NCBI GenBank assembly: GCA_947568835.1
Contig: OX387604.1
Location: 25,263,076 to 25,327,075 of the forward strand
DNA from: Protonemura montana
Lineage: Eukaryota > Arthropoda > Insecta > Plecoptera > Nemouridae
Length of the DNA: 64,000 nucleotides
Direction: 5' to 3'
The translations under genes and the position numbers were made by a program. Below are positions 9,072 through 62,751 of this stretch, one piece after another (the first letter of the stretch is position 1; every line of letters starts with the position of its first letter). The notes under the pieces were generated by a model, which saw only the letters and a program-made list of their open reading frames with translations, made no database searches and had not been told where the DNA came from.

Positions 9072-10719
9072 ACCAGCAAACGCTGGGGACTATTTTAAAC
9101 TGTGATGTCCAATTGGATTGGAAGTGTGAAAATTTGTTTTGACGCATTCAAATGTAGGCTGAACGTTTTGTTTGACGAGGGTGGTTTTGATCTGGATGGA
9201 TTGTGAGTGGAGACGCTGGAAGCTGTGATCGTGGTTAAAACGGGGGTCAGGGGGGGAAGATAGAATGGGGTGATTTTCGTATGAGATGTGCCACAAAAGG
9301 ACATTCTCATCTTTGGTGGAGGTGCCGTGCCATGTCACGAAAATCAACAGAAATAATTTTAAAAAATTGTCGTTGCTTTGCATTTTTTTTTTTTTGGAAA
9401 AAGTTGTAATTTAAAATAAATGTACGAGGTCATGGTTAAGCATGTTTTTATTCGCTTCCATCTCCAATAAAAAAGGATATGAGAAGGATAGAAACGACTG
9501 AATCTTAACCCTCTCAACACAATGCGAATTCTGTCAACAATACTTCACCAGTTCACCAGCATCTCCTTCATGACATCGTTCGTTTTAATTGGCATTTTTA
9601 TTAATTAGTGATTCGCCAACATATTTACTAATTGTAAAGATACAATAGGCAGGAAGTATCAAAATCATTTTATAAGAGAGTTGCTAAGGCAAACTCACTT
9701 AAAAAAAATCACCAAGTTTGCAAAACCGGAGTGGATGTTCTGTTTAACCACGTCTAAACCGCCCCCTCCCTATTTTTCCCACCGTTCCTCTCCTTCGCTC
9801 TGCCTCCGCCTTCCTCACTAGATCAAATAGATAGTCACTTGAGCGAGATAATACCAAAGTCATGATAAAAGAGCATCTACCAGCATTTTACTTTGTATAA
9901 TACCAGCCTCTTCACGTTCCAAACAGATGCTGACTTTTCAGAGAATTGATGGCGGTTTTACAACTTTGCATATTGATTCGCCAGGCAGCAGAATAAGCAA
10001 TGAAATGCTGAACGAACAATGCAAATATATGCTGTCAAATATAGATTAGATAGCGTTTTTAAGACAATGCGTGGCGTCAACATTTTCAAGTTTGACACTT
10101 ACTTTTTTTATTAAGGATGGGGCTATTTGCACGAAAAAACTTGCGAGTTGTGGCACGCAAGTTGCCAAAGCCTATTCGCACAAATATGTTTTGTGAATAA
10201 AATGCTAAACCCTTTTCACAGCTACATCGAACCCCAATATTCTCAATATCAACTGTAATGGCAACTCAAGGTAGAAACAAGGTAGAAGGTTAGGTACAAA
10301 CACCACATTTTAGTGCATCATGATATACTATTAAGAAGCTATAATTTATTTAAATATTATAAATATTTCCACAAACGATGTTGTAAACGATAACAAGCAA
10401 TGCTCACAGAGCAATTAGAACCGACTAAAAGCGGCAATCATGACCGCCATTCCTCCACTCCTCCAAACACTCTCGAAACATCAAACTTCGGCGTCAACCT
10501 CGGAACCTCTTTTCAATGTTGGACCACCACCCTCCCGGTATGGCAGTGACCTTGGAACTCTGCATTTTGGTTATTGTATCTTGTCATTAGCCAAAAAATG
10601 GGTTTCAATTTGGAAATCTATGCTCAATGATGTTTGCCTCAATGATACATTGCAAGACTACAATCATTAGGCTAGATTCGGCTCCGAGGCAAACAGACAT
10701 GTTTCGTGTTACATGTATG
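9072..10719. other. Non-coding, no recognisable gene
   Basis: AT-rich unique sequence. Short overlapping frames at 9090-9383 (minus) and 10440-10670 (plus) carry no recognisable domain. Confidence 0.45.
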
Positions 10720-11209
10720 TTACAGCTTCATTTTCCTTAAAAACTACCAATCAGAGTTGGTATCAGCTTCATTTTCCTTAAAAACTACCAATCAGAGTTG
10801 GTATCAGCTTCATTTCCCTTAAAAACTACCAATCAGAGTTGGTATCAGCTTCATTTTCCTTAAAAACTACCAATCAGAGTTGGTATCAGCTTCATTTCCC
10901 TTAAAAACTACCAATCAGAGTTGGTATCAGCTTCATTTCCCTTAAAAACTACCAATCAGAGTTGGTATCAGCTTCATTTTCCTTAAAAACTACCAATCAG
11001 AGTTGGTATCAGCTTCATTTCCCTTAAAAACTACCAATCAGAGTTGGTATCAGCTTCATTTTCCTTAAAAACTACCAATCAGAGTTGGTATCAGCTTCAT
11101 TTTCCTTAAAAAATACCAATCAGAGTTGGTATCAGCTTCATTTTCCTTAAAAACTACCAATCAGAGTTGGTATCAGCTTCATTTTCCTTAAAAACTACCA
11201 ATCAGAGTT
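10720..11209 (+). repeat. 41-bp minisatellite, 12 copies
   Basis: Twelve head-to-tail units of exactly 41 bp, with starts every 41 bases from 10720 to 11171. Each unit begins tatcagcttcatttt (or cattt-ccc) and ends aatcagagttgg. Two subtypes differ at one T/C position and run T,T,C,T,C,C,T,C,T,T,T,T. Unit 10 has one extra substitution, and the first and last units are slightly diverged at the array edges. Each unit contains ACCAATCAGAG, which fits the NF-Y CCAAT-box core, inside a perfect 6-bp stem (taccaa/ttggta, 6-nt loop). The 41-bp spacing is about four helical turns. Whether NF-Y binds is not known. Confidence 0.97.
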
Positions 11210-45253: not shown

Positions 45254-47287
45254 TAACGCTTCACCGTTTGCAATTTTGTCTTCTGGGTCAAAAACAAGCA
45301 AAATCAGCCAATTGATCCGCATAAATATCGCAGCATAAAAATCGATTTGAGGATTTGATCACTGCTTCAAATTGATATAAGATTTTGAGTTGGTATTGAC
45401 AACCATGACCTATAATCTTCAGAATATATCAATATAGATATGCTCCACCATTCCTCTAAAAAAAAAAATCCATGCTTGATTTGATCTTTTTTTAACCGGA
45501 TATGATCTTAAAACTGATACTATATCATATAAAATGGATTCAGACATATGATAGGCTCATTCTCAAATGTCGATAGGAAAAGTCACGCTCATGAGTCAAT
45601 TATTAATCTTATAAATGCCACATGAAATGCTATCGGATCCGGAATTGACTTAATAATTGACCTTTATCATTTTTATTATGTGCCTTGCGTTTATTTGCAG
45701 TCAATTTGCGACCAAAAACATGAAAAAGTGAGAGAAATAAAACGAGAACCCATCGACTTGGGTATCCAAGAAATGTATAGGTAGCACCTTCTTGTTTCAA
45801 ATTACGCTTAAGATTTTCACAAAAGATATGACGTGTCTATGTAATTAGCTTGAAATGTTTGGCTAGCGCCGAATGACAGATCTGTCGGCAAGTTTCTGCA
45901 ACATTCGTGGGAACAGTTTGTCGGCAGTTTGTCGGCCCATGGCGCCCCAGACGGACCCCCACTGGGCTCATCGTTGCATCGCACCTACAACGTGAACCAC
46001 CTCCTTTCCTCTCTCTCTCTATCCCTCTCATTACCGGCCTTTTTCTTTCAATTTTTGTTTCTTTTCGTTCGTTTTTTCAACACAATTGTCTAAAGGAAAG
46101 TTCAGTGACGGCTGCTTGCCAGGCCACAGTCATCCAGAATCGATCTATTCTCTGAAATTGCTTTTCATTTGTTTTCCAATCTGGTGCTAATAGCCGGTAC
46201 CGATGTTTGGGCTCTTGAGTGTGGAGCAAAGGGAAAGAACGATACGAAACTAGGCAAGTGACCTTTTAACTCTAAGATGAAGCGGCTAGCTTCACCTCAC
46301 TCAAAATCTACCAAACTTAATAAATGATAACGTTTCTCATTTGAAATGTTAACGTTCACTTCATTAACAAAATCAGGCGTTAATGAGCTGAAAAAGAGAC
46401 CGCATGATGAGGCACAAATAGCTTGATGATTTACCTCGTAAACTACTTCAGACCGCAAGAAGAGATGTTTCTTATAAGATAAGTAATAACAGGTTTTTGT
46501 CAGGTTTTTGTCAGAGTTTGACCACTGATGTAATGTCACAGAATAAGTCTACGATATAGAACTGTGTGACATCACGCGTATTGTGTGTTTGCCACTCGTT
46601 ATTGTCAATATCTCTAATTAAGTGCTTTTCAGATCCACCTTTGCTGACAAAAACAGATGAAAAGCTGACAATGGATGACACGTGGTAAGGTTGTTTCGGT
46701 TCGCGTGGGGGTGAGGTGGGCCGCTTGTTTTCACTTTCATTAGTTGAAGCGTGGGGCTAACTGTCACTGTCAACCTGCAGTAGAAATCAAAAACAATGCG
46801 AAACAAAAGCTTTTGATTTCAAATTCAATTCATAATGCCAAGCTCAATCAAAATATTGTTTCAATTGCGTAAAGGTGAGGTGAAATCGTTCTCGATTCAT
46901 TTCGCAAACAACAGAGACGAACGTTGACAATAATTAATGTACAAAATTGTCAGATCTCTCTGCATTTGCGTTGGCCACAAATAGACACAAAACACACACC
47001 GAAAAATAATAATGGTAATGAAAGGTTCCCTACGTAGGAAATAGCTGGTCTGAAAACAGACAAATTGCTATAATAGTACCTTTACCCACAATAAACACCT
47101 TTATTTAGCTAAAAGAATGGTTAGCAATATAAAATACCGTAAAAAACCCATCGATAGATTTCGAAAGGGCAACATGGGTTAGAGTATGAAAACCTTCCCA
47201 CATTATTGTTATTTATTTCTGCTTTGAAAAAGCTGCACGAATTACGTCTTTGCTCTGTAATCAAGTGATATTGTCTGTGACTATAAG
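45254..47287. other. Non-coding, no recognisable gene
   Basis: Mixed AT-rich DNA. 45870-46000 is less AT-rich, with short repeats of gtcggcagttt and no convincing exon. Frames reach 82 codons on both strands without domains. Confidence 0.45.
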
Positions 47288-47620
47288 TTGGCTTGGTTGG
47301 CTTGGTTGGCTTGGTTAGCTAGGTTAGCTAGGTTAGCTAGGTTAGCTAGGTTAGCTAGGTTAGCTAGGTTAGCTAGGTTAGCTAGGTTAGCTAGGTTATC
47401 TGGGTTAGCTAGGTTAGCTAGGTTAGCTAGGTTAGCTAGGTTAGCTAGGTTAGCTAGGTTAGCTAGGTTAGCCAGGTAAGCTAGGTTAGCTAGGTTAGCT
47501 AGATCAGCTAGGTTAGCTAGGTTAGCTAGGTTAGCTAGGTTAGCTAGGTTAGTTAGGTTAGCTAGGTTAGCTAGGTTAGCTAGGCTAGCTAGGCTAGCTA
47601 GGCTAGCTAGGTTAGCTAGG
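47288..47620. repeat. 9-bp minisatellite (ttagctagg), 37 copies
   Basis: Exactly 37 units of 9 bp (333 bp) with no indel. The first three are ttggcttgg. Most are ttagctagg. Variants include ttatctggg, ttagccagg, taagctagg, tcagctagg and a run of three ctagctagg near the end. The unit contains the palindrome tagcta. Because 9 is divisible by 3, a leucine-alanine-arginine frame stays open across it, which does not imply a protein. Confidence 0.97.
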
Positions 47621-49161
47621 TTTTGACGTGCTTTGATACCCTGTCATTAGAAAAGGTGGCTCTCCAGCAACCGTCACGTCTAGCTTTGCGAATCATCCTC
47701 GGCAAGCAGCGATCGCTCGGTTTGTCCCCACTGCTCGCCTGCCCTGCACCAATATAGTCTCCACTAGGGTCAAAACGTTTGACCTGCTCCATTGTAATAA
47801 CTTGAAACAAGTCGAAACCGTTTTATGGCTGCCCGTACCGATAGAGCTTTATGATGATTGTAGAGAAGGTATTTTCGTTTATGTAGTCGGGTATATTATT
47901 TTTGTTTTATAAAACTGGCTAACTTAATGATAGACTACAGGTCGTCTTATATTGTTGTTCAATATGAAGAGCTCGCGCATATCTTTAATTAGAATGATTG
48001 GTTCGACTCATTGTTAAGATCGTTTATTGATGATTAGATTTAAACGTTAAAACGTTTGTCTAACCCGTGATTTAGTTAGCAAAGATCCATCGGAAATGTT
48101 TTTCCCAGAAGATGAACCATGTACTACTAAATTATTGTTGGTGAAAGCGATCACAATGTTTTCCGATTTTTTTTCTAGCCACGAGGAATTTTAATTTTTT
48201 AACGACAACAGAAGTGGATGAGATGAATTTAATGGCAGTAGATTTTTTTTACATAGCAAGTATTTATCGTGATGGATAAAGTTAAACTAAAAATAAAATG
48301 ATTGACTATACAAATTGGAGGTAGTCAACGTAGGTTTGTCATGAACTTTTCCTTGCCTATCTCTTTTAGCAAACATATGCCATCTACATGTTTATTTTAT
48401 TTCCTAGCAAAGCAACTCCTTCAGAGTTGTCCAGTTAAATACGATCCCAAAACATAGCATCCATGATTGTTGTATAGATATATATTGGTCATTCTCACAT
48501 CCAATGATTACCGCAATAAATTGTCAAAGAGATAGATATAAAAGATAACGATTTTATTACACTTCTACGCGCTTGCTGCCAAAATACAACGCCACATGAG
48601 ACGAATAATATGGTTAGAACTTTATCTAATGCCTCGTAATAAAGTATATATGAGCATCCCTGCGAGGGCCACCATGATATCGTGCTGGTACTGGCAGTTA
48701 CTTGCCACACTTTCTAGCATCAAAAAGCAGAAAGTAAAGATGGGGGAGGAGAAGAGATGGGATGGGACTTCACCAACCTAACCATGCCCTGCGACGCGTT
48801 GGTGGCGTCTTGAAAACCAACACTAAAGCAATTAATAGTGTACTCGATGATTTATAGACGCGGCGGAAAGCAAGGTGCTTCCATTCATTACACGTAAACA
48901 CAAAATTTCACGAACTAGCGTTGCACAGAGTAATACTGCTCGGCTTCGTTCCCCACCGGTAAAACAAGAATAAAACAAGATTCTAGGCCTATTACAAAAC
49001 TTCGTTTCAAAGTAAAATTACCGAAATACCTCAACAACAAAACTTTCATTAAGATATCTCCACCGAAGTAAGAGGGTTTCTTTATTTAGTTTCCTCTCGG
49101 CAGATGCTGGTTTACATCCAAGATAGGGATTATTGGGAGAAGCGTTGATCAAGCCTAGAAA
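47621..49161. other. Non-coding, no recognisable gene
   Basis: The first 150 bp (47640-47790) are less AT-rich and non-repetitive, but the 64-codon minus frame in them has no domain. Remaining sequence is ordinary. Confidence 0.4.
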
Positions 49162-54645: not shown

Positions 54646-54841
54646 GGGACCATCAAATAGGGACCATCAAACAGGGACCATCAAACAGGGACCATCAAAT
54701 AGGGACCATCAAATAGGGACCATCAAATAGGGACCATCAAATAGGGACCATCAAATAGGGACCATCAAATAGGGACCATCAAATAGGGACCATCAAATAG
54801 GGACCATCAAATAGGGACCATCAAACAGGGACTATCAAGCG
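54646..54841. repeat. 14-bp minisatellite B (gggaccatcaaata), 14 copies
   Basis: Thirteen near-identical units plus one diverged last unit, 196 bp with no length change. A T/C subtype (aaata or aaaca) runs T,C,C, then nine T, then C, so the subtypes cluster at the edges. Confidence 0.97.
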
Positions 54842-57994: not shown

Positions 57995-59925
57995 ATCGAG
58001 CTTGCCAGTCTAAAGTCATTATATTTTATAATCATCTTGAATTGGAGCTAGTCCAATCAATTTCAAAGCGTATCAGACATCAGGTAGATCTATTTACATC
58101 TTGATGTTACATGATATAATTTATTTTCTTTAAACTGAAACCCAGTTTTTAGATGTTTTGGTAGTCGGATGGATGTCAATCATTTAGTAAATGCATGAGT
58201 ACATCCCTCTTGTCGATTTCTAGGAATCTTTTTAAATTACGTCCAATGGCTAGTAGTGAATCTGCCATAGCAATTCTATTTGCCCCCTGGCGAAATTTCA
58301 ACCAGTTTTGTAATATGTAATAACGATTGGTCGCAGTATGAGTTTGGGAATTGTGCTACCATCTCCTCCCCCTTCCATCCCCCAATCCATAAAATGCCTT
58401 CCACCCACCCTATACCAATTCCTCAACATTTAATAAAATATTTCCTATCGTAGCTCTAACTGAAATTCTCATTCGATAACCACAGCAACTGGTCATCCAT
58501 AATATCATACTTTGCAAAGGGCTGGAAATCGAGCTCAATCAGAAAGCCGCAGTGAAACGTCTGCTCGTGGAATTTATCTTTCCTTTCCTGCTGAGTATTT
58601 GCGTTTTTAACAGGAGCTTGAAATGTTATGAGCAACTAAAAACGAACCAACGGGAAACATTCACATTTTTAAGGGATACAAAAAACTGAGTTATTTATCA
58701 AAATAAAATTGACCCCGGCCAAGAATTGCGACACAGCTGACATTTTTAGAAATGTGAACTGGAGAGACCAGAATATTGGCTCACATGCAATAAATTAATT
58801 AATCCAAACGCAATGAATTAAAAAAAAAGTAAATAAGCAGGTCACGTAACATGAAAGCGATAATTGAGAACAATGAATTAACTTGTATTTAGATCAACTC
58901 GGTCAATTCTTTGCAGGCAAGAAAAATCTCTAGATATGTTTGATGAGGACCAATCAATCAAGACGGTTGCCATAACATTTTAAATTTAATTAATATTTCC
59001 CAGTTCCCCACCCCTTTTAAATGCCACCCTGTTCAGTGAGTTTCTACGATCGAATTCCAAACGAGCTAGATGAGCAAAAGGAGGGAGATCACTTTTTTTT
59101 TTATGTGAGTTTTGGAAATCATCCGACGACATATTATTTTTGTCAAACAACAAAAGATTTAAGTTTTCATTAAAATCAAAATGCTTGACTTCGCTCTTGG
59201 CGATGGGCTGAGGCAGAAATGTGCCTCTCTGTATCTCGGGAAAGGAACCTGAGAGAAAACGATTTCGCGGAGCATATGAAATCCTGAGAGCGCTTCTTCA
59301 AAACCATCCGAATTTCCTGCAATAAATGCTAAAAATATACATCTCATACTTCTTTCATTACTTGAATAAACTGTAACACATAAATGCATGATTAAAAGAG
59401 AGTATTTTTGTGACTTCAAAACATGTTTACCGCAAGATGTTTGCAAATGAAGTTTTTCCCTTTGCTCTTTGCTACATCATGCTTTTTTTAGCTACCCTAA
59501 GATCAGAAATAAAGGACGCGGCATTATTTCATCTCTCGTCTCTTAAAACTGTGGAATTCTTGTGCGAATTATAAAGAGAATCACAGTGACTTTTTTCACC
59601 CTACAGGGCCAAGATGGTAAAGGCTACAAGATCACATAGAAAATGATACGCAAAATCTGTATACAAATTCTACTAGAGATAATTTCAGGATGTAAAGGTA
59701 AAGTGGGAGAAAGGAAAAAGGAAAAAGGAAAAAAAATTTAATGAAAGACGGGAAAGTTGAATTTTCTTTTATAATGTCAAAAGTCGCCACACGATATAAT
59801 CATGTCTAGAAAAGTCTTGAGCAATTCACTGGATATTTCAACATAAGGCGAGCAAAATTCCATTGCATGGCTTACGAAGTTCCAATTTTTCACGAGTTTA
59901 TTCCAATCTCCATGCAGTGCCCTTC
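57995..59925. other. Non-coding, no recognisable gene
   Basis: AT-rich, with a ggaaaaa repeat at about 59713-59738. Just before 59926 lies one degenerate half-unit of the 33-bp repeat (59889-59925). A 95-codon minus frame at 59159-59446 has no domain. Confidence 0.45.
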
Positions 59926-61590
59926 TGACCTTTATTCCAATTTTACTGCAATGCACTGTGACCTTCATTCCAATTTTACTGCAATGCACTGTGACCTCCA
60001 TTCCAATTTTACTGCAATGCACTGTGACCTCCATTCCAATTTTACTGCAATGCACTGTGACCTCCATTCCAATTTTATTGCAATGTATTATGACCTTCAT
60101 TCCAATTTTACTGCAATGTACTGTGACCTTCATTCCAATTTTACTGCAACGCATTCTGACCTTCATTCCAATTTTACTGCAATGCATTCTGACCCTTATT
60201 CCAATTTTACTGCAATGCATTCTGACCTTTATTCCAATTTTACTGCAATGCATTCTGACCTTCATTCCAATTTTCCTGCAATGCATTCTGACCTTCATTC
60301 CAATTTTACTGCAATGTACTGTGACCTTCATTCCAATTTTACTGCAATGCATTCTGACCTTCATTCCAATTTTACTGCAATGCATTCTGACCTTTATTCC
60401 AATTTTAATGCAATGTACTGTGACCTCCATTCCAATTTTACTGCAATACACTGTTACCTCCATTCCAATTTTACTGCAATGTATTATGACCTTCATTCCA
60501 ATTTTACTGCAATGTACTGTGACCTTCATTCCAATTTTACTGCAATGCATTCTGACCTTCATTCCAATTTTACTGCAATGCATTCTGACCTTTATTCCAA
60601 TTTTACTGCAATGCATTCTGACCCTTATTCCAATTTTACTGCAATGCATTCTGACCTTTATTCCAATTTTACTACAATGCATTCTGACCTTCATTCCAAT
60701 TTTCCTGCAATGCATTCTGACCTTCATTCCAATTTTACTGCAATGTACTGTGACCTTCATTCCAATTTTACTGCAATGCATTCTGACCTTCATTCCAATT
60801 TTCCTGCAATGCATTCTGACCTTCATTCCAATTTTACTGCAATGTACTGTGACCTTCATTCCAATTTTACTGCAATGCATTCTGACCTTCATTCCAATTT
60901 TACTGCAATGCATTCTGACCTTTATTCCAATTTTAATGCAATGTACTGTGACCTCCATTCCAATTTTACTGCAATACACTGTTACCTCCATTCCAATTTT
61001 ACTGCAATGTATTATGACCTTCATTCCAATTTTACTGCAATGTACTGTGACCTTCATTCCAATTTTACTGCAATGCATTCTGACCTTCATTCCAATTTTA
61101 CTGCAATGCATTCTGACCTTTATTCCAATTTTACTGCAATGCATTCTGACCCTTATTCCAATTTTACTGCAATGCATTCTGACCTTTATTCCAATTTTAC
61201 TACAATGCATTCTGACCTTCATTCCAATTTTCCTGCAATGCATTCTGACCTTCATTCCAATTTTACTGCAATGTACTGTGACCTTCATTCCAATTTTACT
61301 GCAATGCATTCTGACCTTCATTCCAATTTTCCTGCAATGCATTCTGACCTTCATTCCAATTTTACTGCAATGTACTGTGACCTTCATTCCAATTTTACTG
61401 CAATGCATTCTGACCTTCATTCCAATTTTACTGCAATGCATTCTGACCTTTATTCCAATTTTAATGCAATGTACTGTGACCTCCATTCCAATTTTAATGC
61501 AATGTACTGTGACCTTCATTCCAATTTTACTGCAATGCATTCTGACCTGTATTTCAATTTTAATGCAATGTACTGTGACCTTCATTCCAG
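59926..61590 (+). repeat. 33-bp minisatellite, 50 full copies plus a partial
   Basis: Fifty consecutive 33-bp units occupy 59926-61575, and a partial unit ends near 61590. A unit begins tgaccttcattccaatttta and continues to tgcaatgcattc. No unit has gained or lost a base, so three long frames remain open. These are two on the plus strand (59867-61624 and 59958-61748) and one on the minus strand (59777-61585), encoding 11-residue repeats such as DLHSNFTAMHS or KIGMKVRMHCS. With 33 divisible by 3, open frames are expected and do not show coding. Units 16-31 (60421-60948) and 32-47 (60949-61476) have the same order of variants and appear identical by eye. Units 5-15 are a shorter, slightly different version of the same block. 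About three quarters of units carry tgacctt(c/t)a, the reverse complement of the TNAAGGTCA orphan-receptor half-site. Confidence 0.97.
60421..61476 (+). repeat. Higher-order duplication, 2 x 528 bp within the 33-bp array
   Basis: Two adjacent 16-unit blocks meet at 60948/60949. Diagnostic variants recur exactly 528 bp apart, such as the unit ending aatacactg (60441 and 60969) and the ending tgtattatg (60477 and 61005). I found no difference between the two blocks on reading through both. This implies a very recent duplication, gene conversion, or an assembly duplication. Confidence 0.92.
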
Positions 61591-62194
61591 CTTGCGTTTT
61601 GACGCTTGGCAGCCAACGTATTAATCACTCGCGACAATCCACATTAAAAGTGACAATAAAAGTAACGGCTTCAACAACTGTCAACCAGATTGGCAAACTA
61701 CATTGCTTCTCACTCCACAATACTTATAAGATTATAAACAATATTTAAGAAACCCGTGACAAATATAGAGACATGTGCGCTGAAAACACAGAACGCTTGA
61801 CATGTTTAATCATAATTGGATGAATAGGGTGATGATATTTTATCCTTTTGAAATATAATGGCCGCCTACCTTGGATAATGATGTTTTACGAACGACCTGG
61901 AGCGGATACTTCGCACCTGGCAGACTGTGGTTTTTTTTCTTACAATCGACAGTTGATGTCAGGTTCGGAAATGGTTTAAGTTTGTTGATCTTTTTTTGAT
62001 CTTTTTGTTCATCTTTCGCTAGGCGCACGACGTTGTAAATATATTTTCAATGTCGCTCGTTGGCGGAAAAAGAGTTTTTCCTCGCTTTTCTTCATGCACA
62101 AAAGTGTAAACCAATCAAGACTGTGATTATTACGAAGAAATGTAATCGAATATTACAATATAATCGAGCCTTTGTTTAAATAGTAGTTATCTAT
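61591..62194. other. Non-coding, no recognisable gene
   Basis: Ordinary AT-rich sequence. The 33-bp-array frames run only a few codons into it. Confidence 0.45.
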
Positions 62195-62605
62195 ATTATT
62201 ATTATTATTTGTGGTGTTTAACGACGCACTGTTTTGACATCTGGCCATGCGGCACTGGTCTAATGGCGTCAGTGAATGAGTGGATGTTGATGAGGGTGAT
62301 GATGAACATAATCTTGCCTAGAAGGGAGGGGAAACTCGGTGCCGGCACGTAGCCTACTCCTGTCGAAGACCAAGGGGACCACCGGCTTAACATCCCTTCC
62401 GAAGGACGGTACAACTCTTACAGCAGAATTCCTCCACAAATCCATGCTGCCGAGAGGTTGATAAGCAAGGCGAGTGAAGTTGCTGTACTAACTTTCATCC
62501 CTCCTACCTATCTCCCGAACAGAACTGGCCATGTGTATTCTGGTCCTGACTCAGCGCAGTGTTGCTTAACTTCGGTGATATCATGAGAACCAGTGTTTCC
62601 AACAC
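62195..62605 (-). mobile_element. SINE with 5S rRNA-like head (SINE3-type)
   Basis: Read on the minus strand, about 62592-62540 reads ggttctcatgatatcaccga, agttaagcaacactg, then gagtcaggacc. This closely parallels the internal part of animal 5S rRNA (GGUUCUC...GAUCACCGAAGU.AAGCA), including the Pol III A-box region. The later 5S part (TTGGATGGG...) is degraded. A roughly 300-bp body follows, containing ggatgttaagccggtggtcc. It ends in gtcgttaaacaccacaaat and an (AAT)n tail at 62195-62210. Length of about 410 bp, 5S-type head and simple-repeat tail fit 5S-headed SINEs such as the DeuSINE group. Target-site duplications were not identified, and assignment to a named family needs alignment. Confidence 0.62.
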
Positions 62606-62606
62606 G

Positions 62607-62624
62607 CCAAACCGTTCGGTTTGG
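62607..62624. repeat. 18-bp near-perfect palindrome beside the SINE head
   Basis: ccaaaccg and cggtttgg are perfect 8-bp arms around TT. It lies immediately upstream of the SINE's 5' end and may mark a hairpin-forming insertion site or be coincidental. Confidence 0.7.
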
Positions 62625-62751
62625 ATTCAGAAAGGGGATGTTCCTGTTAATGGCGTGGCGATATTTGTTCTTTTATTAAGCGATCACTAAAAAATGTAAG
62701 ATTTGTGTTTTTTTTGTGTATCGGAAAATTGTCAGGACTGCTTTTACCCTT

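Follow-up and report, generated by a model that had tools for sequence, protein, structure and literature searches.

Minisatellites are tandem arrays whose units range from about 7 to 100 bp in length. The part of PMC8122249 on which we draw describes minisatellite arrays of 0.5-30 kb with a unit of about 15 bp; the groups it mentions are vertebrates, fungi, and plants. It also describes higher-order repeats (HORs), in which unlike units form a block that itself recurs, near-perfectly, as a larger unit, and the Smith model of unequal crossover. The corresponding part of PMC10502081 deals with human minisatellites that carry unit variants, namely a 30-mer on chromosome 12, a 25-mer of ABCA7, and a 69-mer of WDR7, and with the ways in which these long-unit arrays change, which include unit duplication, contraction, and point changes.

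Here we analyze an array of 33-bp units from the stonefly Protonemura montana. The window, i.e., the whole stretch of 64,000 nucleotides that was analyzed (C16:25263076-25327075), belongs to a genome of 258.5 Mb in 34 contigs. The cuticle chitin-binding family PF00379, a large complement of which is a mark of arthropods, yields 130 matches in this genome and registers in 0 of 14 control genomes. The array is very probably a single-locus, noncoding minisatellite of the VNTR type with nested block duplication, one older and one recent.

Results

Extent and units of the array

Tandem Repeats Finder reports a 1.67-kb array of 50.5 copies with 0% indels (Table 1), which places it within the range of minisatellites in both unit and array size. 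When phased on the anchor ATTCCAATTTT, it resolves into 50 complete units stepping by exactly 33 bp, and the original prediction that all 50 share this length is thereby confirmed. If up to 3 mismatches are allowed, a 20-base anchor hits the window 50 times; in shuffled sequence, the mean is 0.01. The units fall into 16 sequence types, for which a minimum spanning tree requires at least 18 substitutions, and their order along the array reads CDDDEFGHIJKFJIL / MNFJIHIOKFJKFJIL / MNFJIHIOKFJKFJIL / PQR.

The predicted absence of indels holds within these borders but not beyond them, as a decayed unit with a 1-bp insertion adjoins the array on the left. This unit has a local alignment score of 43, compared to 36 for the top of 5,000 shuffles, and 36-base pieces from positions 1-59000 of the window score at most 32. 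The diverged edges fit unequal exchange, because edge units would be replaced least; a decayed unit on the left and private unit types on the right are what would be expected of an array homogenized from its middle.

Table 1. Coordinates of the array, its parts, and the neighboring SINE (positions in the window)
Feature	Position	Strand	Evidence or remark
33-bp tandem array	59923-61589		Tandem Repeats Finder
50 complete units	59934-61583		stepping exactly 33 bp
Decayed edge unit, 34 bp, 1-bp insertion relative to 33-bp consensus	59900-59933	+	local alignment score
Older block, 15 units CDDDEFGHIJKFJIL	59934-60428	+	12 units pair with the next block
Perfect 528-bp (16-unit) periodicity	60231-61496	+	about 2.4 copies; contains 60421-60948 and 60949-61476
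99-bp tri-unit duplication K-F-J-K-F-J	60675-60901	+	second instance at 61203-61429, within the following 528-bp copy
Right-edge units P, Q, R	61485-61583	+	each type occurs once in the array
5S-headed SINE	62175-62634	-	Rfam RF00001, 43 bits at 62513-62620; TTA-rich end

Genomic context

A search of the rest of the genome for the 33-bp unit, which had been proposed along with the original prediction, places the array at one locus only in 258 Mb: no second array was found elsewhere by a DNA search that skips very common words. The left flank (58600-59933) is likewise single-copy in the genome search. With up to 3 mismatches, the 20-base anchor matches 122 sites genome-wide, 50 of them within the array, and the 72 others outnumber the 18 found in a reversed-pattern control. 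Among the matches listed, those outside the array stand singly at scattered places and have 2-3 mismatches; a sequence with 3 mismatches turns up repeatedly in this set and perhaps represents an unrelated dispersed repeat. Viral and prokaryote contigs contain no exact match, as expected. Of the 229 listed frames that reach 60 aa, 27 outside the array were compared with Pfam; none scored over the cut-off, and these scans located no gene.

Two candidate identities were rejected. The window lies 4.3 Mb from the end of its 29,637,898-base contig, which speaks against a chromosome-end array, and an array that is part of a transposon is contradicted by the single-copy left flank and by SINE matches that start only about 0.6 kb to the right of the array. 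The 5S-headed SINE found there belongs to a dispersed family for which the genome yields 8,069 first-look candidates, of which 40 were scored; its best full-length matches are 87-90% identical. Separately, arrays of 91-bp units in four of the 10-kb pieces sampled below (L018:9343-9999; L023:6392-7125; L024:4580-4987 and 9149-10000; L026:8799-9714) match positions 270-353 of the SINE query, overlapping its 5S-like region. Judging by this match, these minisatellites were apparently born from the SINE.

Nested block duplication

Identity is 0.960 at a distance of 16 units, compared to a median of 0.909 across unit distances, and the match at a distance of 528 bp is perfect over 738 bp (60231-60968 versus 60759-61496). 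Blocks thus resemble each other more closely than units do, as in HORs. As the perfect match extends to 738 bp, the block borders are arbitrary: the two 16-unit blocks of the original prediction, which had looked identical and prove to be so at 100%, represent one choice of phase. The related shorter block that was said to precede them is also apparent in the unit string. It differs from the next block by 4 substitutions over 12 paired units, with a 1-unit gap, a 3-unit gap, and three leading units left unpaired, a count that depends on a gap cost set to permit whole-unit gaps and that supersedes the 28 substitutions in 15 paired units of an earlier alignment with a high gap cost. At a still smaller scale, perfect 128-bp runs at a distance of 99 bp, beginning at 60675 and 61203, mark a tri-unit duplication inside the younger block.

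The contrast between these 4 substitutions in the older pair and the complete lack of differences over the 738 bp that match at a distance of 528 bp bears out the earlier suggestion of recent amplification. Zero differences in 528 bp place the divergence since the last duplication below about 0.6% (95% bound 3/528, calculated by hand). The mutation rate of insects is near 3e-9 per site and generation; if this rate is assumed, the 528-bp duplication would be younger than roughly a million generations.

We compared these runs with a neutral simulation that comprises random block duplication, block deletion, and substitution alone, matched to 35-70 units and a median identity of 0.88-0.94; its block sizes, rates, and starting array are assumed, and two mutation rates are pooled. 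For mean blocks of 2, 5, 10, and 20 units, respectively, perfect runs of at least 528 bp at least 2 units apart arose in 1/118, 4/107, 10/87, and 16/69 arrays, and runs of at least 738 bp in 0/118, 0/107, 0/87, and 2/69. An earlier simulation with the same run length and distance, also with pooled mutation rates, had given 0/27, 0/48, 3/52, and 3/50 for blocks of 2, 5, 10, and 20 units; a second earlier one, which included one-unit distances, gave 4/87, 9/71, and 15/60 for mean blocks of 5, 10, and 20 units. Under this model, neutral turnover can attain a 528-bp block provided that it copies large blocks; the full run of 738 bp lies at the upper end of what such turnover yields and is reached with large blocks only.

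Identity over as much as 738 bp is also what an assembly artefact that made the perfect 528-bp duplication would produce. Such an origin is very improbable: the array is just 1.67 kb long and has single-copy sequence on its left, and the tri-unit and older block copies show a like process. Furthermore, with its 258 Mb in 34 contigs, the assembly was presumably built from long reads, and these would span the array.

Absence of indels and open reading frames

The indel rate of this genome can be gauged from 17 SINE copies, i.e., those among 50 matches in which 330 or more columns are aligned, which show 36 indels per 438 substitutions. This ratio of 0.082 depends on the alignment and uses the SINE copies as a stand-in for neutral DNA. 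At this ratio, about 1.5 indels are expected for 18 substitutions and the probability of none is about 0.2, lying between the computed values of 0.27 for 16 substitutions and 0.19 for 20. The absence of indels in the array is thus unremarkable and expected from the local SINE indel rate.

It is against this background that a coding repeat must be judged, in which the array would constitute an exon or part of one, encoding up to about 600 residues in an 11-residue repeat whose unit length is kept by selection on frame. The interior without indels would accord with it, as would the three of six frames (+0, +2, and -1) that stay open over the whole array and yield ORFs of 585 to 602 aa. The claim that frames are open on both strands throughout is correct for these three and fails for the others, which hold 45-53 stops each; an N-F-T sequon was foreseen in most units and, counted by eye in one plus frame, is present in 39 of the 50. 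However, open frames come easily by chance to tandem 33-mers because 33 is divisible by three: among random 33-mers of the same composition, 35% have exactly three and 65% have three or more.

The variants point the same way. In the three open frames, the 16 distinct variants divide into silent, replacement, and stop changes as 5/11/0, 3/13/0, and 2/14/0, compared to neutral expectations of 4.7/10.7/0.6, 3.6/12.4/0, and 2.9/12.5/0.6 when transitions are weighted twofold. This comparison, which had likewise been proposed at the outset, is neutral in each open frame: neither depletion of replacements nor one favored frame was found with these 16 variants, a number that affords low power.

One long frame of the array exceeds the Pfam cut-off for EpCAM_N, Colipase-like, and MOSP_N, a second for ObR_Ig, PsbQ, DUF4653, and Intu_longin_3, and the third for no family. 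Among these seven families, Colipase-like alone had stretches passing by themselves, and in six 66-aa pieces of the array (3 minus and 3 plus, two of them identical) no family reaches the cut-off, EpCAM_N attaining 24.3 bits against 27.5. The matches of the long frames were set aside as apparently summed weak repeat scores to mutually unrelated families, and a PDB search with one open frame gave no match. Given the chance-level frame counts, the neutral variant split, and the lack of convincing family matches, we reject a coding function, which we regard as highly unlikely. The proposed selection on frame fares no better, since the local indel rate accounts for the missing indels and the edge unit itself carries a frameshift.

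Comparison with other arrays in the genome

A sample of 314 kb, consisting of the window and 25 pieces of 10 kb (L010-L034), holds 25 arrays, window included, with a period of 7-150, at least 6 copies, and a score of 150 or more. The sample is not random, as five pieces are on C16 beyond the window and two are at contig starts. Three compound arrays with reported periods of 10, 150, and 111 and inner units of about 5, 50, and 37 bp were set aside; off spacings occur in each of them, and two of the reported periods are multiples of three. An array was counted as indel-free if every spacing of its anchor word is a multiple of the period. Among the 22 simple arrays, this applies to all 8 of the 8 with units divisible by three, the present one included, versus 7 of the 14 others. 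The difference (one-sided P of 0.02) is a weak trend noticed after the fact, and it is the sole result leaning toward a coding repeat held in frame by selection; some of the divisible-by-three arrays could be coding. The indel-free arrays also include units of 14, 29, 41, 68, and 91 bp, and length conservation therefore does not need a frame. We consider it very unlikely that this array and some other divisible-by-three minisatellites are kept indel-free as translated, lineage-specific repeat proteins of 11-residue (or similar) units arising de novo.

Perfect block copies are seen elsewhere in the sample. At distances of 3 or more units, 15 control arrays hand-picked from the sampled list include runs of 685 bp at distance 4 in an array of 98-bp units, 300 bp at distance 3 in one of 91-bp units, 179 bp at distance 12 in one of 15-bp units, and 163 bp at distance 5 in one of 41-bp units. 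The 738-bp run is the longest of the 16 arrays compared, which counts against an ordinary minisatellite.

Several of the sampled arrays merit mention in their own right. The window holds three more indel-free minisatellites, at 10723-11209 (41 bp), 47287-47622 (9 bp), and 54646-54838 (14 bp). Tandem arrays make up most of the 10-kb piece L024 (G000:C14:2500001-2510000); they comprise 15 bp x 111, 41 bp x 59, and arrays with 5/10-, 37-, and 91-bp units. A 98-bp x 63 satellite (L016:1-6202) opens contig C1 (G000:C1) from its first base; it contains the 685-bp perfect run at 4-unit distance and is a candidate subtelomeric repeat. At L023:1309-2038, a 60-bp x 12 array has copies that are 97% alike and three open frames; it is a possible coding repeat.

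A regulatory or structural array kept by selection, such as a binding-site cluster, is hardly credible: columns 1-11 (ATTCCAATTTT) are identical in 49 of the 50 units (unit table, by eye), the array contains 49 copies of CCAAT and 38 of CATTCC, strings that presumably resemble known factor sites, and the longest conserved run has a P of 0.04 with the last unit's variant left out, but this P becomes 0.32 with the variant included, and any 33-bp unit repeated 50 times will carry some known motif 50 times.

Discussion

The case for a noncoding minisatellite with nested block duplication draws on several features of the locus. The unit order is nested, the 528-bp periodicity holds without a mismatch for 738 bp, and beside it stands an older pair of blocks; the array is the sole one of its kind found in the genome and its left flank is unique, as befits a single-locus minisatellite. 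In each of the three open frames, the variants split as under neutrality, the lack of indels is no surprise (P of about 0.2), and arrays of this sort abound in the sampled parts of the genome, with perfect multi-unit copies in some of them. Finally, perfect runs of at least 528 bp are obtained from the neutral model. Set against this are the rarity of the 738-bp run in the simulations and the divisible-by-three trend. No function is needed to explain the features of the array.

Its history can be read, at least in outline, from the order of the units. The array would have started with the tandem duplication of a short sequence and grown by the copying of single units and unit blocks, through unequal sister exchange or replication slippage. 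We infer that units diverged first, after which a block of 12 or more units may have been duplicated, subsequently gaining 4 substitutions along with whole-unit gains or losses. A 3-unit piece would then have been duplicated inside the younger block, or alternatively lost from the older one. The 528-bp block was probably duplicated last, so recently that no base differs.

By itself, the array is of little significance, being a further locus of a well-known class. It is nonetheless a tidy small example of nested block duplication, the steps of which are readable from unit order, and an illustration that neither open frames in a 33-bp array nor a perfect multi-unit block need have a function behind them.

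The original prediction likened this structure to centromeric-type HORs. The likeness of shape stands: as in alpha satellite and other HORs of the kind covered in part by PMC8122249, a multi-unit block of unlike units recurs near-perfectly. Kinship does not follow from it. Unlike alpha satellite, which forms long arrays at the centromere, the present locus comprises about 2.4 copies of one block in a single 1.67-kb array located 4.3 Mb from the contig end, with no homologous array found elsewhere in 258 Mb; smaller block copies in other sampled arrays weaken the centromeric connection further. Minisatellites and VNTRs provide the closer parallel. The unit of 33 bp departs from the about 15 bp given in the portion of PMC8122249 used here, which names vertebrates, fungi, and plants, but the array lies within its range of 0.5-30 kb and the unit variants are arranged in a distinct order. 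The human minisatellites in the corresponding portion of PMC10502081 vary between people and are disease-linked, whereas this array is known from one assembly; with them it shares long units and changes by unit copying and point changes.
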